In this document: positions 41,901-53,794 of the stretch, one piece after another | How the letters are laid out: every line of letters starts with the position of its first letter | How positions within the stretch are numbered: position 1 is the first letter of the stretch | DNA from: Rhodococcus sp. SMB37 | GTDB taxonomy: Bacteria; Actinomycetota; Actinomycetes; Mycobacteriales; Mycobacteriaceae | Assembly: GCF_004345605.1 (NCBI RefSeq) | Contig: NZ_SLVY01000002.1 | Coordinates: 310,001-374,000, forward strand | Direction of reading: 5' to 3' | DNA length: 64,000 nucleotides | Made by a program: the position numbers and the translations under genes | Notes under the pieces: model-generated | Told to the model about the DNA's origin: nothing | Seen by the model: only the letters and a program-made list of their open reading frames with translations | Database searches by the model: none

Positions 41901-42988
41901 CTATCCGGCTGCCAGCGCATTCCCGTCGGGTCCCGCGTCCGGTGGGAACGTCCCGTTCGCGTACGGGTTGTACTCGTTGGTGAACAGATCCTCGGGGTCG
42001 ACCGCGCCGTCTTCCAGAATGCCGAGACGCACGCTCTGATCGATCCAGATCCCGAAGTCGTCGGCTGCGATCGGCCCGCCGGGGTCGGGCACGCCCGGAC
42101 TCTTCCACTGCTGGACGAATTCGGTGCTCTCGCTACGACCCCGAGCCTCGATGACAGAGACGAATCGATCGATCACCTCGTCACGCGGTCGGGTCTGTGC
42201 CCATCGGATGGCTCGCGCGGTCCCCTGCACGAAATCGGCGACCTCGTCCGGATGCTCCGCGATGAAGTCGTCACGAAACACGAGTGCACTGTAGGAGAGA
42301 GGTCCGGAGAGGTCGATATCGGTGAACAACGGTCGCAGGCCGCCGCGGGCGAGTGCTGCGTCCTTGATGATGCCACCGAGGTTCCCCACATCGATCGCAC
42401 CCTGCCGCAATGCCTGTTCCGTGTTGAGCGGAGGCACCACGACCAGTTCGACCTGTGCGATCTCGTCGTCGGACAACCCCGACCGGAACAACCATTCCTT
42501 GATCACATACTCGTGGTAGGCGCCGAGCGTGTTGATCCCGATCTTCTTCCCGATCAGATCCCGGGCGGACGTCAGTGGGCTTCCATCGAGGACGTAGTAC
42601 CCGTTGAAGGTGTGCTCCGTCGTGTCTCCGTCCGCGCCGCTCACCGACACCACAGCGGTCAGTGGAGCACCGGCTCCGGCAAGCTTCGCGATCGCGCCGT
42701 GGAACGCGGAACCGAAGTCGGTCTCCCCTGTGGCTGCGTTCTGGATACTCGAGGGCCCACTGGTGTTGTCCCCCAACCACTCCAGAGAAACACGGTCGAA
42801 GTATCCGAGGTCCGCGGCAAGCTCCGGGAAGGTGACGTTGCTCGGGCTACCCTCGTATCGGAGCACCCTTTCCCGTCCGGAGACGCCGCTTCGACGCTTC
42901 CGGGTGCGGCACCACACGCCGTCGACACCAGCGCGATCACCGCAAGCATGACCGCACCCACCGAAGATCTTCCCAGTACCGACGACAT
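41901..42988 (-). pseudogene. sulfonate/nitrate-type ABC substrate-binding lipoprotein, frameshifted
   Basis: The ATG at 42988 (GAGGAG upstream) opens a lipoprotein signal with lipobox LVSTACG and continues to about 42870. From there the conserved protein (RVLRYEGSPSNVTFPELAADLGYFD onward) is in the frame ending at 41901. One base appears to be missing at about 42866-42875 in a G/A-run on the complement (GGGAAAGGG). Apart from that it is a full-length SsuA/TauA-like binding protein. No permease or ATPase gene is nearby. It is the last gene after two TauD-type dioxygenases. A sequencing error is possible. Confidence 0.82.
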
Positions 42989-42998
42989 TCACTGCTCC

Positions 42999-43931
42999 TC
43001 AGTCGTTACCGTAGAAGAGCTCGCCCACCACGGACACTGATGTTCGCCCGTCGACACCGACCGGCACATCGCCTTCGATCGTGGTGCGGTGCAGAACTCG
43101 CACCACGTCGAGGTGATCGAGATCGGTGGGCGCTTGATGGGCGGTGATCCGGTTGTCCCACACGCCGATGCTGTCGTTCTCCCATCGGATTCTCACCGTG
43201 TACGCAGGATTCGTGATCTCATCGAACAACAAGTCGAGGATCCGGTCACTCTGCCGCGGGGACACTCCGATGATCCGACTGGTGAAGCCGGGTGTCACGA
43301 ACAGTCCGCGCTCACCCGTCTCCGGGTGCACGCGCACCACCGGATGCTCGGTGATGTACGGCTCCGTGGTGACATGCTGCTCCGACCGGCTCCCGGATGC
43401 CCACCTCGGTGTGCGCCCACCGAAACGGTGTTCGGCACGCAGGCCCTCGACGAATTTCTTCAGCGGCACGGGCAGATTCGCGTAGGCGGCACCCAGGTCG
43501 GTCCACGTGGTGTCACCCCCGACCTCGGGGACGAGTTCGGACCGCAGGAATGTGATCGCGGGAGGATTGACCAGCGCCGAAACATCCGAGTGCCAGAAGT
43601 TGGCGTACGAATACTTCTTGGTGCCGGACCGCTCCGCGTACTTTCGACTGTCGACCTCGAGGATCTCTTTATGGGGAGACTCCGGGTCATAGTTGTACGG
43701 ATGCGAATTGGTGACCCGGCCGAAGTACCGGGTGAACGCGATCTGTTCCGCATGATCGAGCGGCTGACCGCGGAAGTAGAGGACCTTGTGCTCGAGGAGC
43801 GCCGCTCGCAGTCGCGCGACGGTGACTGCATCGAGACTCTTCCGGAGGTCGATGCCCCCGACTTCGGCTCCGAGATGGCCGGCGACGGGTGCGATCTCGA
43901 AGGTCGTCGTGGGTTCGGCGAAAGTTGTCAT
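42999..43931 (-). CDS. TauD/TfdA-type Fe(II)/2-oxoglutarate dioxygenase (copy 2)
   Basis: 310 aa from the ATG at 43931, one base after the stop of the paralogue upstream. The metal ligands are His114-x-Asp116 (FWHSDVS) and His265 (NRITAH); Arg282 in HRTTIEGD should hold 2-oxoglutarate. The family hydroxylates sulfonates such as taurine, alkyl sulfates or phenoxyacids. The adjacent SsuA/TauA-like binding protein supports a sulfonate or sulfate ester. An IclR gene heads the unit, and GlpR or CysB-type control is not visible. Confidence 0.9.
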   Translation of the reverse strand: MTTFAEPTTTFEIAPVAGHLGAEVGGIDLRKSLDAVTVARLRAALLEHKVLYFRGQPLDHAEQIAFTRYFGRVTNSHPYNYDPESPHKEILEVDSRKYAERSGTKKYSYANFWHSDVSALVNPPAITFLRSELVPEVGGDTTWTDLGAAYANLPVPLKKFVEGLRAEHRFGGRTPRWASGSRSEQHVTTEPYITEHPVVRVHPETGERGLFVTPGFTSRIIGVSPRQSDRILDLLFDEITNPAYTVRIRWENDSIGVWDNRITAHQAPTDLDHLDVVRVLHRTTIEGDVPVGVDGRTSVSVVGELFYGND

Positions 43932-43932
43932 C

Positions 43933-44871
43933 TCATTCCTCGCCGCGGAATGCTGCGCCGGAGATCGACACGGACTCCCGGCCGTCCGGACCCACCGGGA
44001 CATCCCCCTCGATGGTGGTGCGGTACAGCACGCGGGTGACGTCGAGATGGTCGAGATCGGTGGGTGCCAGGTGCGCGGTCGCGCGGTTGTCCCACACTGC
44101 GATACTGCCGGGAAACCAACGGAACCGGACGGTGTAGGCGGGAGCCGTGACCTCCTCGAACAGCAGATCGAGGAGGTGATTGCTCTGCGACGGCGACAGC
44201 CCGACGATGCGGGAGGTGAATCCCGGTTGCACGAACAATGCCTTCTCCCCCGTCACCGGATGCACCCGCACCACGGGATGTTCGGTGACGAAGGGGTTGG
44301 CCTGCACGCGGCGGCCGTAGTCGCTGTCGGCGGACCATTGCGGTTGACGCCCACCGAATCGATGCTCGGCACGCAGGCCGTCGACGAGGTTGCGGAGGGA
44401 TTCGGGCAGGCCTTCGTACGCAGCGACCAGATTTGTCCAGGTGGTGTCACCGCCGCGCTCGGGAACCTCATGTGCGCGCAGCAGCGTTACGGCCGGCGGA
44501 TTCACTACCGCCGTGACATCGGTGTGCCACTTGTTGTCATAGCTGTACTTCTTGCGACCGAAGCGTCGTTCGTACTTGCGGCTGTCGACCGCCAGGATCT
44601 CCGGGAATCCCTCCGGCGCCTCGTCGTCGTACGGGTGCGACGGCGTGACTGTGCCGAAGTGTCGGGAGAACGCGATCTGCTGCGTATGGTCGATGTGCTG
44701 ATCGCGGAAGAACAGCACCTTGTACTTGTGCAGCTTCCGGCGCAGCTTCTCGGCATCGTTGCCTGCGACTGGCTTTCGCAGATCGATTCCGGTGACCTCG
44801 GCGCCGATATGGCCGGCGACCGGTCGTACGGCCAGTTCGGTCGATACAGGCGTTTCCTGTACAAGCGTCAT
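43933..44871 (-). CDS. TauD/TfdA-type Fe(II)/2-oxoglutarate dioxygenase (copy 1)
   Basis: 312 aa, strongly similar to copy 2. His116-x-Asp118 (KWHTDVT), His267 (NRATAH) and Arg284 (RTTIEGD) are the expected iron and 2-oxoglutarate ligands, so both copies appear active. Differences are scattered across the substrate-facing loops, so they may act on different sulfonates or phenoxy-type acids. A 107-base gap with a TTTC...GAAA inverted motif separates it from the IclR gene. Confidence 0.9.
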   Translation of the reverse strand: MTLVQETPVSTELAVRPVAGHIGAEVTGIDLRKPVAGNDAEKLRRKLHKYKVLFFRDQHIDHTQQIAFSRHFGTVTPSHPYDDEAPEGFPEILAVDSRKYERRFGRKKYSYDNKWHTDVTAVVNPPAVTLLRAHEVPERGGDTTWTNLVAAYEGLPESLRNLVDGLRAEHRFGGRQPQWSADSDYGRRVQANPFVTEHPVVRVHPVTGEKALFVQPGFTSRIVGLSPSQSNHLLDLLFEEVTAPAYTVRFRWFPGSIAVWDNRATAHLAPTDLDHLDVTRVLYRTTIEGDVPVGPDGRESVSISGAAFRGEE

Positions 44872-44957
44872 GACATCCCCTCGGGCTGTGTGCTACTCGG
44901 CCACCTATCGGGCCGTTGCGATCACTCTTCCTCGCCGGAGGTTCCACGGGTAGTCCG

Positions 44958-44973
44958 TTTCCACGATGCGAAA
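44958..44973. promoter_or_regulatory. possible IclR operator upstream of the dioxygenases
   Basis: TTTCCACGATGCGAAA has inverted TTTC/GAAA ends in the gap between the IclR stop and the first TauD start. It is AT-richer than its surroundings. Assignment to the neighbouring IclR regulator rests on position only. Confidence 0.35.
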
Positions 44974-44978
44974 AATAC

Positions 44979-45728
44979 TCAGCCTGAACTTATTTCGCGC
45001 GCGATCGCGACGCGGTCGGACCCACGACCGATACGGTCGGCCGCACGGTGCATCGGAGGCACGATCTGCCGCACCACGGCGTCCGTCAGCCTCCGCCTTT
45101 GCGCCTGCACGCCGATTGCACCCCACGGCCGCCGCATGCCGTCGAACACCGGCACTGCTACAGTAAGCAGAGAAGAGTCGGACTCATCCGGAGCGACTGC
45201 AAACCCGCGCCGACGAATCTGTTCGAGTTCAGCGCGGCAGGGCGCCGCCACTCGGGAACTCGTTGAGAACGCAAGCATCACCCGGCCCATCACGCTACTC
45301 GCGACCGGTTGCCGGGCGCGTGGAATCTGGGCTTCGCAGAACTTCTCGGGAGGCCGGGCAGAAAAGAGCGTGAGTACTTCATCCGACCTCACGACACCCA
45401 AACTCGTCGTGATCTCGATGCCTGCCGCAAGCGCATAGAGCTGCGGTGCACAGAAGTCGACACCCGCCCTCACCAGTGGCGGTACCGCAAGGGTGATCAG
45501 GCCCGGGCCGATGCGATAGCCGTCGCCGCCGGGAACCCTCTCGAGCAGCCCACCACGTAGGAGCGCTTGGGCTATTCGATACGCACTGCTCACCGGAAGA
45601 CCGGTGCGCGCCGCGAGCGAGGAGACCGACAGGTCGGTCGCGCCGTCGTCGAAACATGCGAGCATCGCCACAGCGCGCTCGACTGCGCGGGATCCGGACC
45701 GGGCCTCGTTCGACGGACTACTCACCAT
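44979..45728 (-). CDS. IclR family regulator
   Basis: 249 aa from the ATG at 45728 with GAGGTG upstream; a GTG at 45749 is an alternative. The N-terminal winged helix (RAVERAVAMLACF, then LSVSSLAARTGLPVSSAYR) and the C-terminal IclR ligand domain are complete. It heads the dioxygenase unit on the same strand and is divergent from the ABC importer, so it may control either. IclR proteins often govern use of aromatic or sulfonated carbon sources. Confidence 0.9.
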   Translation of the reverse strand: MVSSPSNEARSGSRAVERAVAMLACFDDGATDLSVSSLAARTGLPVSSAYRIAQALLRGGLLERVPGGDGYRIGPGLITLAVPPLVRAGVDFCAPQLYALAAGIEITTSLGVVRSDEVLTLFSARPPEKFCEAQIPRARQPVASSVMGRVMLAFSTSSRVAAPCRAELEQIRRRGFAVAPDESDSSLLTVAVPVFDGMRRPWGAIGVQAQRRRLTDAVVRQIVPPMHRAADRIGRGSDRVAIAREISSG

Positions 45729-45894
45729 CACCTCACGACTCTCAGTGACCACCCTCTTCGCCCCACCGGCGCGGCAGGGTGATCCTGATCGGAACTCTTG
45801 TCGGCGCAGCCCCCGCAGACAACGGTTCGGCGCGGCACGATCCCAATCCGACCCGGACGGGGAGACACCCTGCACGCCACCCCCACACGTGTTA

Positions 45895-45913
45895 TAAGGT
45901 CACGCTAACAAAA
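45895..45913. promoter_or_regulatory. iron box 1 (DtxR/IdeR-like) upstream of the ABC importer
   Basis: TAAGGTCACGCTAACAAAA matches 15 of 19 positions of the DtxR/IdeR consensus TWAGGTTAGSCTAACCTWA by hand count. It lies 43 bases before the GTG of the binding-protein gene; TAAGGT at its left end could be a -10 element. Confidence 0.6.
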
Positions 45914-45914
45914 G

Positions 45915-45933
45915 TTAGGCAAGCCAAGCTTGA
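45915..45933. promoter_or_regulatory. iron box 2 (DtxR/IdeR-like) upstream of the ABC importer
   Basis: TTAGGCAAGCCAAGCTTGA matches 13 of 19 consensus positions. Its centre is 20 bases from that of box 1, two helical turns, so two repressor dimers could bind on one face. CTAACAAAAGTTAG, a perfect inverted repeat (45905-45918), joins the two. Confidence 0.5.
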
Positions 45934-45955
45934 CTTCGAAAGAATGTGACTCCTC

Positions 45956-47647
45956 GTGATACGTAGTACCCGGCGCCCCCGCGCCGTAACCCGGTCCAGT
46001 ACGGCCCCGTCTCGTGCGGCACGCTCTGCCGCCCCGGCGCTGATCCTCATCCCCGCGTTGCTCGCCGCCGCATGTGGCTCGTCCGACTCGTCGACGTCCA
46101 CCACGGAAGGGCCGGCTCGAGCCGAGTCGCTGACGGTCGCCGTCGCCAAGGACACCGGTCCTCTCAATATCTTCGCCGGTGCGTCCGACCAGATGACCGA
46201 GCTCGTCTACGACAAGCTGCTTTCCCCGTCGCCGTACGTCGCCGACCCGCAGCCGTGGCTGGCCACCGACGTCCGGCAGGTCGATCCCACGACCTGGGAG
46301 GTCGATCTTCGCGACGACGTCACCTGGCACGACGGCGAAGCGTTCACCGCCGACGACGTCGCCTTCAGTTTCCACTACATGCATGCCGCCCCGACCGGGC
46401 GCTTCACGCATCACGTCAACGACACTCCGTCGATCTCGACGGTGGAAGCGACGAGCCCGACCTCGGTCCGGTTCGTGTGCGACTACGCATGCCCCGAACT
46501 CGGCACGGTCACGCTCGCCGATCTCCCCGTGCTTCCCGAACACGTCTGGTCGAAGGTCGACCCAGCAACGGCCAAGGAAGTGACCGACCTCCCGATCGGC
46601 ACCGGGCCGTTCGAGCTCGTGGACTACAGCCCCACCACCGGGTACAGGTTCGAGGCCAACGCCGACTATTTCGCGGGCGCTCCGACGGTCGACGAGCTGG
46701 TCATGCCGGTGATCGCGGACTCCTCGGCGGCATTCACCGCGCTCAGCTCCGGTCAGGTCGACGCCGTCGACCGCGCCCTCACCCCGGAACTCGTCGATCA
46801 GTTCACCGCCTCGAACGACATCGGTACGATCACCGTGGCGCCGCTGACCTACCCCGAGCTGAAACTCAACTTCACCCGTGAGCCCTTCGCGCAGAACGAC
46901 TTCCGTGCCGCGCTGAACTTCGCGGTCGATCGGGATCAGATGCTCGACATCGTCGGCCTCGGCCAGGGCCGCCCCGGCACCCAGGGCTACGTGCACCCGG
47001 ATGCACCGTTTGCCGACCCGGACGCCTCCACCCCGTACGATCCGGCTCAGGCCACCGCTCTGCTCGACTCACTCGGATGGAAGGATATCGACGGCGACGG
47101 CACCCGCGAGAACCCGGCGGGAGAGGACGCACCGTTCACATTGATCGTCAACGGTGGTGACGCGCCGCAGGTCCGCGCCGCCGAACTGATCGCCGAGGAC
47201 TTCGCCGAGGTAGGTATCGACGTCGTCGTCAGCCCCCTCGACGCCGGCTCTCTCTCGGATGCGTCTGCAAAGAAGAACTTCGACCTCTACGTCACCACGA
47301 ACAGTCCGCACGCGGTGGCCGACTCCACGCAGTTCATCATGTCGCACCGTTCGGGCAACCTGTGGAGTCACCCCGATCTTGCCTACCCGGAATTCGATGC
47401 GCTGTACGAGAAATGGCGCGCCACCGAGACCAACGAGTCGCGCATCGCGGCGATGCAGGAGATGCAGGAGCTGTTCAACCGTCAGCCCACCGCCATCGCC
47501 CTGTACTACCCGGACGAGACCTGGGCCTTCCGCGCCGACCGATTCGCCGGCTGGGTCGAGACCCCCGGCTACGGCATCGTCCACAAGTGGTCGTTCCTGC
47601 CCTCCGACGTCGTCGACGCCGCGAACGCGGAAGCCCCGCAGGACTGA
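45956..47647 (+). CDS. peptide/nickel-type ABC substrate-binding lipoprotein
   Basis: 563 aa. A lipoprotein signal ends in LLAAACGSS, followed by a full SBP_bac_5 domain (DVTWHDGEAFTADDVAFSFHY, IGTGPFELVDY and LYYPDETWAF). It should capture the substrate outside the membrane and give it to the permeases encoded next. The stop overlaps the first permease ATG. Two iron-box-like sites lie just upstream, so expression may rise under iron limitation. The family binds peptides, nickel, haem or metal chelates. The GTG start has a poor ribosome site. Confidence 0.9.
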   Translation: MIRSTRRPRAVTRSSTAPSRAARSAAPALILIPALLAAACGSSDSSTSTTEGPARAESLTVAVAKDTGPLNIFAGASDQMTELVYDKLLSPSPYVADPQPWLATDVRQVDPTTWEVDLRDDVTWHDGEAFTADDVAFSFHYMHAAPTGRFTHHVNDTPSISTVEATSPTSVRFVCDYACPELGTVTLADLPVLPEHVWSKVDPATAKEVTDLPIGTGPFELVDYSPTTGYRFEANADYFAGAPTVDELVMPVIADSSAAFTALSSGQVDAVDRALTPELVDQFTASNDIGTITVAPLTYPELKLNFTREPFAQNDFRAALNFAVDRDQMLDIVGLGQGRPGTQGYVHPDAPFADPDASTPYDPAQATALLDSLGWKDIDGDGTRENPAGEDAPFTLIVNGGDAPQVRAAELIAEDFAEVGIDVVVSPLDAGSLSDASAKKNFDLYVTTNSPHAVADSTQFIMSHRSGNLWSHPDLAYPEFDALYEKWRATETNESRIAAMQEMQELFNRQPTAIALYYPDETWAFRADRFAGWVETPGYGIVHKWSFLPSDVVDAANAEAPQD

Positions 47648-48648
47648 TGCCAGCCCTGCGCCGAGCGGGACAGTACGCGCTGGTTCTGTGGGCCGCGGTG
47701 ACATTGAACTTCGCACTTCCACACCTGGCACCGGGTGATCCCGTCAACTATCTGTACGGCGGCGACCAACAGTCACTCGACCCGAAGTACATCGCACAGA
47801 TGCGCGCAGACTACGGGCTCGACCGGCCGATCCTCGAGCAGTACGTCACCTTCTGGTCCGGCCTGCTGCGCGGAGATCTCGGAATGTCCGTACAGCACAA
47901 TCGCCCCGTTCTCGATGTGCTGTGGGAAAAGCTTCCGTGGACGCTCGCGCTGGTCGGGATCGGGACGCTGCTCGCGTTCGTCATCGGCTCCCTACTCGGC
48001 GTATGGGCGGCATGGCGCCGTGGCACCGCGAAGGAAACCGGGACCGTCGTCACGGTTCTCGCGCTCGATTCGATGCCCGGTTTCTGGATCGGCATGATTC
48101 TCATCGCGGTGTTCTCGGTGACGCTCGGCTGGTTCCCGTCGTACGGCGCGGCCTCGTTCGACGCGACCGGTGTCGAATGGCTCACCGAGGTCGCGTCCCG
48201 CATGGCGCTCCCCGTCGCGACGCTCACCATCGCCGGTATCGGCGGGTTCTTCCTCATGACCCGTGCGTCGATGGTGAGCGTGCTCGACGAGCCGTTCATC
48301 CGGCTCGCCCGAGCCAAGGGGCTCGGCGAGTTCCGTGTCGCGCTCGGGCATGCGCTGCGCAACGCCCTGTTGCCCGTGTACACCACGCTCACCCTCACCG
48401 TCGGGGTGCTGCTGTCGGGTGCTGTCGTCGTCGAATCCGTGTTCGCCTACCCGGGCCTGGGCAAACTCACCTTCGATGCTGTCACCGCGCGTGACTATCC
48501 GCTGCTGCAGGGTGCGTTTCTGCTCGCCACGGTCGGCATCGTCGCCGCGAATCTACTTGCCGATCTGACCTACCCGCTGCTCGATCCTCGGGTGCGCAAG
48601 GACCGGACCGCCGCGACGAAGCGCGCACTGGAAGGGACACCGGTATGA
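47647..48648 (+). CDS. ABC transporter permease (DppB type)
   Basis: 333 aa with six membrane helices and the usual first periplasmic loop (PGDPVNYLYGG and YGLDRPILEQY). The cytoplasmic EAA-like loop is seen as FIRLARAKGLGEFRVALGHALRNALLP. It overlaps the neighbours at both ends. Together with the permease half of the next gene it forms the membrane pore of the importer. Confidence 0.93.
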   Translation: MPALRRAGQYALVLWAAVTLNFALPHLAPGDPVNYLYGGDQQSLDPKYIAQMRADYGLDRPILEQYVTFWSGLLRGDLGMSVQHNRPVLDVLWEKLPWTLALVGIGTLLAFVIGSLLGVWAAWRRGTAKETGTVVTVLALDSMPGFWIGMILIAVFSVTLGWFPSYGAASFDATGVEWLTEVASRMALPVATLTIAGIGGFFLMTRASMVSVLDEPFIRLARAKGLGEFRVALGHALRNALLPVYTTLTLTVGVLLSGAVVVESVFAYPGLGKLTFDAVTARDYPLLQGAFLLATVGIVAANLLADLTYPLLDPRVRKDRTAATKRALEGTPV

Positions 48649-50336
48649 GTCTTCTCGGCACGAAGACCCGCTCGCGTCGCCTCGCACTCGTGGGCGCCGT
48701 GATTCTGGGGATTCTTCTGCTGTGCGCGGCCGCAGCGCCCTGGCTCGCGCCGTACGACCCCACCGAACGCGTCACCCGGCCGTTTGCCGCACCCTCCACA
48801 GACCATTGGCTCGGCGCCGACGACGTGGGCCACGACCTACTGTCGATGCTCATCCACGGCGCCCAGATCTCCTTGTTCGTCGGTGTGGTCGCGGCTCTCG
48901 TCGCAACCACGATCGGCACCGCGATGGGCATCGCCGCCGGGTATGTGCGCGGAGCCGTCGACACCGTACTGATGCGCATCGTCGATGTGGTGCTGTCGTT
49001 GCCGGTGCTGCCGCTGACGATCGTCATCGGAGTCTTCGCGGGCCCCGGCCTGGGCACCCAGGTCATGGTTATCTCGGCAGTGCTGTGGGCAGGTCTCGCC
49101 CGCGAATTGCGCGCGCAAGTACTGACTCTGCGCGAGCGGGACTACATCCAGGCGGAGCGGGCCATGGGCGCAGGCCCCGTGTATGTGCTGCGTCGGCATG
49201 TCCTTCCCGCGATTCTGCCACTGGTGATCCCGCAGTTCGTACTTACCGTCAAGACCGCGATCCTGCTCGAGGCATCACTGGCGTTCCTCGGGCTGGGCGA
49301 CATCTCGGCGGCGAGCTGGGGGGCGATGCTGTCGATGGCCCACGCACGCAACGCCTTCCTCACCGACGCATGGGTCTGGTGGGTCCTGCCGCCGGGCATC
49401 GCCATCGCGGTCACCGTGCTCGGGTTCGCGTTGCTCGGCAATGCTATCGAGGAACGGTCGCGCCCGATCCTCACGGCCCACCAGTACCGGCTGCGTCGAA
49501 AGGCGCGGCCGGCGGAGGCACCTCCTGTCGACGAGATTCCGGTCGCACCGCTCGTCGTCGACGGCCTGACGGTCGTGTACGGCGAGCAGGGCAGCGGCGC
49601 AACGAAGGTGTCGTTCGCTGTCGAGGCGGGTGAACTCGTCGGCCTCGTCGGCGAATCGGGCAGTGGGAAATCGACCGTTGCCGCCGCGACGCTCGGGCTG
49701 CTCCCCTCCGCAGCAAGGATCACGTCCGGACGTGTCCTCGTGTCCGGCCGCGATGTCGCCGCGCTGCCGAACGAGGAACTACGAGCGCTCCGTGGGAACC
49801 GAATCTCCCTGATCCCGCAGGAAGCGCTGAGCGCGCTGAACCCTGTGCGCAGCATCGGATCCCAGATGGACGAGGCGATTCTGGTGCACCGCCCGTGCAG
49901 CCGACACGAGGCGCGTGATCGAACGCTCGAGTTGCTCACACAGGTCGGACTCGGCGCCGACCGCGCCGCCGCGTATCCGCACCAACTCTCGGGCGGTATG
50001 CGCCAGCGGGTCGTGATTGCGATGGCACTGGCCAACGAACCGGATGTGGTGATCGCCGACGAACCGACCAGTGGTCTCGATGTTCTCCGTGAGGCGGAGA
50101 TACTGGCGCTGCTCGATGACCTCCGCAGACACCACTCGCTCGCACTGCTCATCGTCACGCACAACCTGCCGGTCATCGAGCGCATCGCCGATCGCATCGC
50201 GGTGATGAAAGACGGCGAACTCGTCGAGATCGGCACGGCCTCGCAGATCGGCACCGACCCTCGGCATCCGTACACCCGCAGGCTGGTCGACGCTGCGCCG
50301 CGGCTCGAATCCCTCCGGGAGAAGGTAGCTCGATGA
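48645..50336 (+). CDS. ABC permease (DppC type) fused to an ATP-binding subunit (DppD type)
   Basis: 563 aa. Residues about 1-285 are a DppC-like permease with five or six helices and the loop DYIQAERAMGAGPVYVLRRH. A short linker (about 285-305) leads to an ABC ATPase with Walker A GESGSGKST, signature LSGGMRQR and Walker B VVIADEPTSGLD. There is no stop or start between them, so this is a genuine fusion of subunits that are normally separate. Overlaps of four bases at each end couple it to the operon. Confidence 0.92.
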   Translation: MSLLGTKTRSRRLALVGAVILGILLLCAAAAPWLAPYDPTERVTRPFAAPSTDHWLGADDVGHDLLSMLIHGAQISLFVGVVAALVATTIGTAMGIAAGYVRGAVDTVLMRIVDVVLSLPVLPLTIVIGVFAGPGLGTQVMVISAVLWAGLARELRAQVLTLRERDYIQAERAMGAGPVYVLRRHVLPAILPLVIPQFVLTVKTAILLEASLAFLGLGDISAASWGAMLSMAHARNAFLTDAWVWWVLPPGIAIAVTVLGFALLGNAIEERSRPILTAHQYRLRRKARPAEAPPVDEIPVAPLVVDGLTVVYGEQGSGATKVSFAVEAGELVGLVGESGSGKSTVAAATLGLLPSAARITSGRVLVSGRDVAALPNEELRALRGNRISLIPQEALSALNPVRSIGSQMDEAILVHRPCSRHEARDRTLELLTQVGLGADRAAAYPHQLSGGMRQRVVIAMALANEPDVVIADEPTSGLDVLREAEILALLDDLRRHHSLALLIVTHNLPVIERIADRIAVMKDGELVEIGTASQIGTDPRHPYTRRLVDAAPRLESLREKVAR

Positions 50337-51094
50337 GCGCATTGCTCGAAGTCGATTCGTTGTCGGTGGTGTTCGGCGGGTCCCCCGCTGTGGACGACGT
50401 GTCCTTCCGGCTCCGCACCGGCGAATCCGTCGCCCTGGTAGGTGGTTCGGGGGCCGGAAAGTCCACGGTTGCGCGGGCGATCGCCGGGCTCGTCTCCGCG
50501 ACGTCGGGCCGCATCGTGTTCGACGATGTCGACCTGACCACCGCCTCGACACGCGCGGGTCGAACGCTGCGGCGCGGCATGCACCTGGTCTTCCAGGATC
50601 CATACGCCTCGCTCCCACCGGGGATGCGTGTCGGCGACATCGTCGCCGAGCCGATGGTGATCCACCGAATCGGCGACAGAACCGCCAGGCGCGACTCCGT
50701 CCTGGACGCGCTCGCGTCGGTGCGGCTGACTCCGGCAGCCGATTTCGTCGACCGCTACCAGCACGAGTTGTCGGGTGGGCAGCGACAGCGCGTCGCGTTC
50801 GCGCGAGCACTCGTGACCCGGCCCCGACTCCTGCTTGCCGACGAACCCACCAGCGGACTCGACGCGTCGCTGCGCGTGGAGATCGTCGATCTGATGTCCG
50901 ATCTGGCACGCACCCAGGATCTCGCCGTCCTCCACATCACGCACGACCTGGCGCTCGCAGCTCGGAGCTGCGACGCCGTCATGGTCATGCAGGACGGGGT
51001 GGTCGTCGAAACGGGAAGTTCCACTGAAGTGCTCACCAATCCCTCGCACCGATACACGGCGGCATTGGTGGCCGCCGCGACCGGCGCACAGTGA
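50333..51094 (+). CDS. ABC transporter ATP-binding protein (DppF type)
   Basis: 253 aa. Walker A is GGSGAGKST, the signature LSGGQRQR and Walker B LLLADEPTSGLD. It should pair with the ATPase half of the preceding fusion as the second ATPase of the importer. The GTG/ATG overlap with that gene keeps the operon tight. It is short for DppF, without the C-terminal oligopeptide/dipeptide extension. Confidence 0.93.
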   Translation: MSALLEVDSLSVVFGGSPAVDDVSFRLRTGESVALVGGSGAGKSTVARAIAGLVSATSGRIVFDDVDLTTASTRAGRTLRRGMHLVFQDPYASLPPGMRVGDIVAEPMVIHRIGDRTARRDSVLDALASVRLTPAADFVDRYQHELSGGQRQRVAFARALVTRPRLLLADEPTSGLDASLRVEIVDLMSDLARTQDLAVLHITHDLALAARSCDAVMVMQDGVVVETGSSTEVLTNPSHRYTAALVAAATGAQ

Positions 51095-51116: not shown

Positions 51117-51623
51117 ATGTCTGCACAACTTGATCTGATCGACAACGGGATGCCCATCGACTTCACCGTCGACGACGTGATGAAGTACCACGGCCCCGGA
51201 TTCCCAGGAGGTGTCGCCCACGCCGTCAAGGTGCTCGAGCGCGCCCTGCCGGCCCTGAGTCCCGACGCCCCGGCCGAGCGTCGCGAGATCACCATCTCCA
51301 CCGCACATCGCGGTCCGGGCGTACGCGACACATTCGAAGTGGTCGCACGCGCCGTCACGGAGGATCGGTTCACAGTGGATTCGACGCTCGAGCGCACCGA
51401 CCGAGGCTCGACCCTCGAGCGCTACGTGTTCGTGCTCTCCTACCGCGCCACCACGGTGCGCCTCGAGATCCGCGAAGGTTTCGTCACCGACGAGTTCATC
51501 AACCTCGGCCGCAAGGCGGATCGCACCGACGCCGAGAACGCTCGGCTCACGGTCCTCAAGCAGGAGATGGCCGATCGTCTGCTCGCCGCACCCGCGGACG
51601 AGGTCTACGACATCGTGGGATAA
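51117..51623 (+). CDS. hypothetical protein, possibly a degenerate FmdE-like domain
   Basis: 168 aa; AGGAGA lies ten bases before the ATG. The stretch VMKYHGPGFPGGVAHAVKVLERAL resembles the FmdE pattern HGHxCPG..., but the second His and the Cys are replaced (HGPGFPG), so a metal site would be lost. Another segment with RGPGVRDTFEVV is where FmdE has its GCTxGK. No signal or helices. It directly follows the importer and is probably part of the operon. The FmdE relation is tentative and the function unknown. Confidence 0.6.
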   Translation: MSAQLDLIDNGMPIDFTVDDVMKYHGPGFPGGVAHAVKVLERALPALSPDAPAERREITISTAHRGPGVRDTFEVVARAVTEDRFTVDSTLERTDRGSTLERYVFVLSYRATTVRLEIREGFVTDEFINLGRKADRTDAENARLTVLKQEMADRLLAAPADEVYDIVG

Positions 51624-51647: not shown

Positions 51648-52055
51648 ATGCCCTCCCCACGCACACCATTGATCCTGCTCACTGTCGCCGCCGCGTCGGT
51701 GGCGACCTGGTTCGCGTGGCTCGGATGGGGGACCGGTTACCGAACACTGCCGGACGGCAGTGTGACAGGGCCGTATTCGACGATGCAGGTGGTCGCGTCC
51801 GGAGTGACGATCACCTGCATCGTCGTCGTCGGGTGCCTGGCGTTGCGCCGCTCGGTCAGGGGCAGCATCGCGGTGGTCACGTGCACGACCGTCGGGTTCG
51901 CGCTCGCGTGGGGGCGCAACGCAGCAGCGAGCGACGAGAGCGGACTGTGGGTCGTGGGTCTGCTGTTACTCGTAGCAGGCACTGCTGTCGGAGAATCCGC
52001 GGTCGCGGTGCTCACCTGGCTCGTGTCTCGCCGCGTAGTGCAACACCGGCGCTGA
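51648..52055 (+). CDS. small integral membrane protein
   Basis: 135 aa with four predicted helices (about residues 7-24, 44-64, 73-88 and 100-122) joined by short polar loops. I do not recognise a family. It follows the FmdE-like gene by 24 bases and could be the last member of the importer operon or a separate unit. Confidence 0.7.
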   Translation: MPSPRTPLILLTVAAASVATWFAWLGWGTGYRTLPDGSVTGPYSTMQVVASGVTITCIVVVGCLALRRSVRGSIAVVTCTTVGFALAWGRNAAASDESGLWVVGLLLLVAGTAVGESAVAVLTWLVSRRVVQHRR

Positions 52056-52406: not shown

Positions 52407-53081
52407 TCATGTGTGGTCTACCCAGCGCAGAAGCGCGTAGAGGAATCGGGTCGCGCCCGGCATGAAGTTGCTGCCGTGGTGGTAGGTCGGATCGAGGGTC
52501 GTGACGATCAGTCGCCCCGCGGTCGAGACGGTGTCCTCGTACAGCATCATGCCCGCGTCGTGCGCATCACCCGCGGCGTCGGGCTCCTCGGAGACGATCA
52601 GCGGTACCACGTCTGCGTCCGTGCGCAGCAGTCCGTGGTGATGCCAGATCGCCGACTTGGTGGTCAGGTACTGCCATGATTCGTGGTCGTGACTACGGGT
52701 GCGGATCAACGGATCCTCCCCGTGGAGCCACCACCAGAAGTTCGTCGGCCGCGGTTCCCATTCGACGCCGGGAAGCCAGGTGTGGACGTGGTTCTCGCCG
52801 AGCACGACTAGGGTGCCGCCGCGCTCGGCGACAGCGCGGAACTGCGCGGCGTGGCGGGCGACGAGGTCGGGGTGCAGGCGGTCGGCGAGGATCACCGTCG
52901 AGTAGCCGTCGAGGTCTCCGTCGACGAGGTCTGCGAGATAGTGGAATTCCGGCTGGTGGGCGAGCACCGCCGGGTCCTTCATCGTCTGCAGGTGCGGGTA
53001 GGAGCCGCCGTGGACGAGCGCGAGTCGCGTGCCCTGCTGGGGCGCACGGTCGGTACGGGAGAAGGGTTCGACGGTCGTCAC
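52407..53081 (-). CDS. ThuA/glutamine-amidotransferase-like protein (second of a pair)
   Basis: 224 aa from a GTG at 53081, overlapping the stop of the upstream gene (GTGA). The fold is that of class I glutamine amidotransferases and ThuA: RLALVHGGSYPHL, then YSTVILADRLHPDL and GGTLVVLGENH. No Cys follows the nucleophile-elbow position, so amidotransferase chemistry is doubtful. The Trp-rich TNFWWWLHGEDP and two His-rich loops (HDHE, WHHHG) could hold metal or substrate. It is likely transcribed from the promoter with the iron box at 53776. Confidence 0.75.
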   Translation of the reverse strand: MTTVEPFSRTDRAPQQGTRLALVHGGSYPHLQTMKDPAVLAHQPEFHYLADLVDGDLDGYSTVILADRLHPDLVARHAAQFRAVAERGGTLVVLGENHVHTWLPGVEWEPRPTNFWWWLHGEDPLIRTRSHDHESWQYLTTKSAIWHHHGLLRTDADVVPLIVSEEPDAAGDAHDAGMMLYEDTVSTAGRLIVTTLDPTYHHGSNFMPGATRFLYALLRWVDHT

Positions 53082-53722
53082 CGCTGCACCAGCCAATCGA
53101 TGAGTTGCGTCGTCAGTTTCGAGGAGCTGTTGGGGTCGTTCGCCCAGCCTGTGAGGTCGTTGCCGCCGTGCGCAAGTACCTGCCCCTGTCCCAATGGGTA
53201 GACGTAGTCGAGGGGCAGAGCGTGGCGCCCGATCCGGGTGGCAACGTGGGCGTCCACCGGAATCTTGTCGATGTAGCCGCGCGCGTAGAACCCTGTGACA
53301 CCCTTTCGAGTACTCAGATCGACAGGATCGACGCCGGCCCATACCGGGTGCGGGTCGCCGAGAGTGATCGCCAGGTCTTTCGGACCGGTGTACGCGAGCT
53401 TGCGCCACACACCCAGCCCCGGAAGGAATTCGGTGAGCACATGTCCCATGACCGCGACCCGGCCACCCGAGGTGACGAACTCGGTGAGCAGGTGCTTGTT
53501 TCGCTCCAGGAAGATCTGGTCGGAACCTCCACCGATGATCAGGCCGCGTACCGACGAGAGGTCTGTGTGAGGAAGGCGGTAGAGGTCGACCTCACCGAGC
53601 CGGGGGTCGCCGTGGACACCCCCCTCGAGATTGTCGCTTCCCATGGTGATTCGTAGGACCGGAGCGAGTGCGGCGGAGACAACTTCGCCTGGGTCGGGAG
53701 CGGTGCGTTCAGGTGCTGACAC
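53078..53722 (-). CDS. glutamine-amidotransferase-like protein (first of a pair)
   Basis: 214 aa; the GTG at 53722 has GGAAG upstream. It has the same general Rossmann-like pattern as its neighbour (GLIIGGGSDQIFL, GGRVAVMGHVLTEFLPGLG, LGQGQVLAHGGNDL), again without an obvious Cys nucleophile. The two proteins might form a heterodimer. They have no recognised function. A promoter with an iron box lies 54 bases upstream, so the pair is probably made under iron shortage. Confidence 0.75.
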   Translation of the reverse strand: MSAPERTAPDPGEVVSAALAPVLRITMGSDNLEGGVHGDPRLGEVDLYRLPHTDLSSVRGLIIGGGSDQIFLERNKHLLTEFVTSGGRVAVMGHVLTEFLPGLGVWRKLAYTGPKDLAITLGDPHPVWAGVDPVDLSTRKGVTGFYARGYIDKIPVDAHVATRIGRHALPLDYVYPLGQGQVLAHGGNDLTGWANDPNSSSKLTTQLIDWLVQR

Positions 53723-53775: not shown

Positions 53776-53794
53776 TAAGGTAAGCCTTTCTTAA
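53776..53794. promoter_or_regulatory. iron box (DtxR/IdeR-like) at the amidotransferase-like pair
   Basis: TAAGGTAAGCCTTTCTTAA matches 15 of 19 positions of TWAGGTTAGSCTAACCTWA. It overlaps the -10 element and part of the spacer of the promoter for the pair, the place where DtxR-type repressors act. Confidence 0.72.

Follow-up and report, generated by a model that had tools for sequence, protein, structure and literature searches.

What does an importer of the kind annotated as a peptide or nickel transporter take up, and is it controlled by iron? The question is raised by a 64,000-nucleotide stretch of the genome of the soil bacterium Rhodococcus sp. SMB37 (assembly GCF_004345605.1, contig NZ_SLVY01000002.1, positions 310,001 to 374,000, forward strand), hereafter the window, in which an operon for a family-5 ATP-binding cassette (ABC) importer lies directly downstream of two sites resembling the DtxR/IdeR iron box. 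The explanation that best fits our sequence analyses, to which we give a probability of about 0.6, is an iron-repressed family-5 importer that carries an iron chelate (most probably some siderophore or another metallophore) and works with cytosolic helper proteins. The components of this explanation are unequal in strength. Predicted control by IdeR of two promoters, that of the importer and that of a convergent operon of helper genes, is strongly supported; an iron chelate as the probable substrate class is moderately supported; and the action of the helpers on the imported chelate is something we infer from association alone.

Iron boxes and their conservation

The features of the locus are as follows.

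45895-45913, no strand assigned: iron box 1, DtxR/IdeR-like, TAAGGTCACGCTAACAAAA, 15/19 matches to the consensus
45915-45933, no strand assigned: iron box 2, DtxR/IdeR-like, TTAGGCAAGCCAAGCTTGA, 13/19 matches to the consensus
45956-47647, + strand: family-5 substrate-binding lipoprotein, 563 amino acids (Pfam SBP_bac_5, 254 bits)
47647-48648, + strand: permease of the OppB/NikB type, 333 amino acids (Pfam BPD_transp_1)
48645-50336, + strand: OppC-type permease fused to an ATPase, 563 amino acids (Pfam OppC_N, BPD_transp_1, ABC_tran, oligo_HPY)
50333-51094, + strand: second ATPase, 253 amino acids (Pfam ABC_tran)
51117-51623, + strand: 168-amino-acid helper protein, distantly FmdE-like, which follows the importer in relatives
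51648-52055, + strand: 135-amino-acid hydrophobic protein (judged by eye), an optional member
52407-53081, - strand: ThuA-like helper protein 2, 224 amino acids, with motifs WHxHG and LDPxxHxG
53078-53722, - strand: ThuA-like helper protein 1, 214 amino acids, paralogue of protein 2
53776-53794, no strand assigned: iron box 3, 15/19 matches, preceding the ThuA-like pair

A binding protein, two permease domains and two ATPase domains are present, the full composition of a family-5 (Opp/Dpp/Nik-type) ABC importer. Each of its genes overlaps the next by 1 to 4 bases; 22 bases then lead to the gene for the 168-amino-acid protein and 24 more to that for the 135-amino-acid protein, which stands 3' of the 168-amino-acid gene in 4 of the 7 other importer-bearing genomes of the genus. 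The initial annotation ended at 51094, and the operon extends to at least 51623. The ThuA-like pair forms an operon convergent to it, with its own box at 53776.

Boxes were scored against TWAGGTTAGSCTAACCTWA, which we take to be the 19-base-pair DtxR/IdeR consensus. Rescoring confirmed the two sites first proposed before the binding-protein gene, with 15/19 and 13/19 matches and centres 20 bases apart; the GTG start of the gene (45956) is 22 bases past the end of box 2, and an extra 13/19 match at 45910 overlaps both boxes. Chance was estimated from 20 first-order Markov sequences, each of window length, in which scores of at least 13/19 occurred 1.0 times per sequence, those of at least 14/19 0.15 times, and none reached 15/19. 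In the window itself this score is attained twice, by box 1 and at 53776. Because the Markov sequences never reached this score, box 1 alone is beyond chance, as would be expected at the promoter of a member of the IdeR/DtxR regulon. Box 2 alone is within chance, since a 13/19 match is expected about once per window, and it is credited because its place 20 bases from box 1 is conserved.

That conservation was followed in relatives, where homologues were placed by tblastn because the gene calls, made by a simple script that skipped or misplaced genes, were unreliable; the functions of neighbouring genes there were judged by eye unless a Pfam family is named. A search of 60 other genomes gave orthologues of the binding protein in 9. 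By inspection, 8 of these 9 have the box pair with 20-base spacing before the orthologous gene, and the ninth (G057) has a single box of 17/19, so that a box is kept before the orthologues, again as in an IdeR/DtxR regulon. In several relatives the start of box 1 falls inside a TATAA- or TTAA-like stretch that may be the -10 region.

In a wider set of loci the 250 bases upstream of each gene start were scored. A box of at least 14/19 precedes each of the 14 binding-protein genes of the Opp type, that of the window among them. One also precedes 9 of the 10 binding-protein genes of Fec-type importers (the exception being the Devosia locus L076) and 7 of the 9 genes for ThuA-like protein 1, all 9 of which have one of at least 13/19. 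Among other called gene starts, taken as a control, the count at 14/19 was 11 of 582. Nine of these 11 boxes either repeat promoters that are already in the set (loci L045-L049 span the same places as other loci) or belong to a divergent neighbour sharing the box, and the remaining two precede the 168-amino-acid gene of L070 and a lysine-N-hydroxylase-like gene (L041). The 20-base pair with a summed score of at least 26 was counted as well: 13/14 for the Opp type (window included), 7/10 for the Fec type, 3/9 for ThuA-like protein 1, and 9/582 in the controls, every one at second copies or shared boxes. As many of the loci are close relatives, these counts are not independent events.

A candidate repressor is encoded in the same genome. 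Two DtxR-family proteins were found there, one IdeR-like, with a cysteine stretch of the IdeR type, and the other MntR-like. Across the 6.2-Mb genome the consensus with at most 3 mismatches occurs at 12 places and its reversed pattern, the control, at 2; boxes 1 and 2, with 4 and 6 mismatches, fall outside these 12. Ten of the 12 were opened as loci and judged by eye, and about half adjoin genes that look like iron genes, among them siderophore-binding-type lipoproteins (L001, L008, L009), an isochorismate synthase-like gene (L010) and a possible haem-use protein (L006); no obvious iron gene was seen adjoining the others. Control by Zur was considered and rejected: no Zur-like site was found near the promoter, and the 5 Zur-like matches in the window, a number within the range of shuffles (4 of 100), have their nearest member at 46860, inside the binding-protein gene.

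Iron control of the importer, as the initial annotation had proposed, draws support from the conservation of the tandem boxes, from box 3, from the IdeR-like protein and from the boxes at Fec-type importers with the same helpers. With iron plentiful, IdeR-Fe(II) on the tandem boxes would keep the importer and the 168-amino-acid protein off, and on the box at 53776 it would do the same for the ThuA-like proteins; with iron short, both operons would be expressed.

Before the importer operon, on the - strand at 41901-44871 and 44979-45875, are two adjacent TauD-like dioxygenase genes, a sulfonate-type binding protein (by eye) and an IclR-family regulator (Pfam). No iron box of at least 13/19 was found around these genes (41901-45875).

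Helper proteins and their partner importers

The 168-amino-acid protein matches no Pfam or NCBIfam family. Pfam gave no match above cut-off to FmdE (PF02663), and the FmdE family model was also negative on the protein's own genome; a relation was therefore sought by profile comparison. The 168-amino-acid family and the FmdE profile match colinearly over 121 columns, with a global score of 31.5 (probability 67.7%; 40 column shuffles gave at most 11.0) and a local score of 31.2 (39.5%), compared with 20.8 for shuffles and 23.8 for an unrelated binding-protein alignment. The motif HGHxCPG with a second cysteine was not found, the FmdE cysteines being absent from the family. The two ThuA-like proteins are paralogues by profile comparison (97.1% probability). 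Protein 2, whose two motifs are kept in nearly all aligned members, matches ThuA (PF06283) over 157 columns with a score of 38.7 (probability 71.5%; 30 shuffles gave at most 19.2), whereas for protein 1 the match is weaker, at 28.2 with a probability of 14.9%, and its shuffles went no higher than 21.7. Pfam scans of five ThuA-like proteins gave no score above the ThuA cut-off, the best being 15.9 of 33.4 bits, and neither member of the pair has a Pfam family. A sequence search of the PDB with profiles of the 168-amino-acid family and of the ThuA-like pair returned best E-values of 1.1 and 0.79, which are not significant, and no helper protein matches a haem-degrading family in Pfam.

Among 18 genomes of the genus the 168-amino-acid protein occurs in 12 and the ThuA-like pair in the same 12. 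An Opp-type importer is present in 8 of these; two of the other 4 (G003, G005) were opened and both have the Fec type. The named loci with the nearest 168-amino-acid proteins are those of Rhodococcus sp. JCM 9791 (93%) and Rhodococcus sp. HNM0563 (87%). Among the matches listed from 394 genomes of the class, the own genome included, 4 have the protein and 2 the pair; only 9 candidates for the former and 4 for the latter were scored, in the own genome and the listed ones.

The helpers adjoin the binding protein, permease and ATPase of a Fec-type importer in L038, L039, L061, L069, L070, L075 and L076, and in L059, L060 and L063 the ThuA-like genes adjoin such an importer, with about 5 to 8 kb between them and the 168-amino-acid gene. 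In L058 the Fec-type binding protein comes closest to 4ovk and to proteins of the iron-complex and MolA-like (HI_1472) kinds. In G091 the ThuA-like pair adjoins an Opp-type importer, and the 168-amino-acid gene is on a different contig. The pair is fused into one gene of about 430-445 codons in G057 (L043), G034 (L044), L069, L071, L072 and L073, sitting between the last ATPase and the 168-amino-acid gene, with an uncertain start in L072.

It is possible, and we put it forward tentatively, that the ThuA-like pair and the FmdE-like protein constitute a new cytosolic system for chelate processing or iron release that serves two unrelated importer classes. If true, the helpers and not the transporter type would define the system. 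To our knowledge only a few reductases and hydrolases are known to release iron from imported chelates in this bacterial group, and iron-boxed proteins without Pfam families that go with two importer classes offer a testable candidate for a further route.

Several loci showed other arrangements. Opp-type and Fec-type importers are adjacent in Rhodococcus sp. ARC_M6 (L069, 223-10111), each with helper genes. In a Pseudonocardia locus (L073, 1963-3158) an extra ThuA-like sequence separates the gene for the binding protein from that for the permease. In Nocardia carnea (L074, 1289-5019) the ThuA-like genes and the 168-amino-acid gene follow an MMPL-like gene, and no ABC importer was recognised at that locus. 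In G032 (L041, 8394-16999) the 168-amino-acid gene is near a lysine-N-hydroxylase-like gene, which has a 15/19 box of its own before it, and near a peptide-synthetase-like gene. Seven FmdE loci of other Actinomycetota were also opened: L098 is followed directly by an Opp-type importer, L099 adjoins a Fec-type permease and ATPase, and five have neither. The first two hint that FmdE proteins more widely accompany metal-complex uptake.

The imported substrate

Sequence scores separate the binding protein from the named members of its class. Its best NCBIfam score, for NikA, is 140.3 of the 393 bits needed; it reaches 61.2 of 1005 bits for DppA and 87.4 of 800 for CntA, and is also far from the OppA cut-off. 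Among solved structures, Lmo0135 is nearest in sequence (115 bits); peptide-binding proteins come next, and NikA scores about 87-91 bits. Twelve binding proteins were then aligned to NikA and DppA of E. coli. At the place of DppA Asp408, which we take to be the peptide anchor, all 12 have Ala or Gly, and R97, R137, W398, Y402 and H416, presumably the ligand residues of NikA, are kept in none of the 12, both as read from a distant alignment; all 12 share a pair of cysteines and several histidines. The identities NikA, DppA and CntA were rejected on the NCBIfam scores, and the first two also on these residues.

Besides the iron boxes and the IdeR-like protein, the explanation of an iron-chelate importer with helpers is supported by the association of the helpers with Fec-type importers, by their co-occurrence in 12 of the 18 genomes, by the missing peptide and nickel anchor residues and by the two FmdE loci, of 7, that adjoin an importer. 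Outside the membrane the binding protein would capture the chelate, and the permease/ATPase complex would bring it in; once in the cytoplasm it would be a target of the FmdE-like and ThuA-like proteins, which would probably free the iron or process the ligand. If so, an annotation as a peptide/nickel importer can conceal iron uptake.

Some observations weigh against this explanation. Genes for siderophore synthesis were not seen next to the window operon. Of the 13 genomes opened with the 168-amino-acid protein, all picked for having it, 9 are without the ThuA-like pair, and 6 of the 9 pair-less loci (L062, L065-L068, L077) are without a box of 14/19. The residue test leans on presumed residue roles and on a distant alignment, and the relations of the helpers to FmdE and ThuA are weak profile matches.

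Other explanations have to be set against the same data. A haem importer, in which the family-5 protein would carry haem as M. tuberculosis DppA does and the helpers would serve haem or its iron, would agree with the iron boxes and with the conserved histidines of the binding protein. It draws on PMC6751184, where DppA of M. tuberculosis is described as a haem-binding protein required for haem use. We regard it as unlikely: the helpers match no haem-degrading Pfam family, and the Fec-type partner importers are closer to MolA-like and iron-complex binding proteins than to haem ones. Import of a metallophore for nickel, zinc, cobalt or manganese, iron-regulated since the metallophore also binds iron, seems to us rather improbable. 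It is favoured by the position of NikA as best NCBIfam score, by the MntR-like protein in the genome and by the same-class importer of C. diphtheriae, dip2162-2165, which PMC6711530 describes as repressed by zinc and iron. The NikA score of 140 of 393 bits, the replaced NikA residues and the absence of a Zur-like site near the promoter speak against it.

That the operon encodes a peptide importer which is incidentally iron-regulated is more doubtful still. Its Pfam domains are those of peptide importers and, among the solved structures related to the binding protein, several carry peptide-binding names; against this stand the Ala or Gly at the anchor place and the sharing of helpers with an iron-complex importer. 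The view of the initial annotation that peptides are not the substrate is supported only indirectly, by that anchor place and by the distance from the DppA, OppA and NikA cut-offs. Finally, the boxes could be chance matches, as the score of box 2 alone would allow. This is hardly credible and was rejected on conservation in relatives, where both boxes and their spacing are kept and an additional box stands before the partner operon.

Comparison with known systems

For the helper set, no description was found in the open-licence literature searched. The 168-amino-acid protein is distantly like FmdE in its weak colinear profile match, and also in the 2 of 7 FmdE loci that adjoin an Opp- or Fec-type importer, and unlike it in having neither a Pfam match nor the FmdE cysteines. 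Helper protein 2 aligns, again weakly, with ThuA along 157 columns but falls below the Pfam cut-off. NikABCDE and CntABCDF belong to the same importer class as the window operon, and NikA gives the best NCBIfam score, but the scores are below the cut-offs and the presumed NikA ligand residues are replaced.

In C. diphtheriae, according to PMC6711530 and PMC13001254, the NikA/OppA-like importer dip2162-2165 lies beside sidAB and is repressed by iron through DtxR and by zinc through Zur. It resembles the window operon as a family-5 importer with a DtxR box, iron-repressed there, and differs in having one DtxR box together with Zur sites, and synthesis genes adjoining. M. tuberculosis DppABCD is likewise a family-5 importer serving iron nutrition, its DppA binding haem and being required for haem use (PMC6751184); the part of that article available describes no iron box or helper proteins, and the peptide core site of its DppA differs from the lost anchor in the window binding protein. 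Given these precedents in C. diphtheriae and M. tuberculosis, iron control of a family-5 importer is not new.

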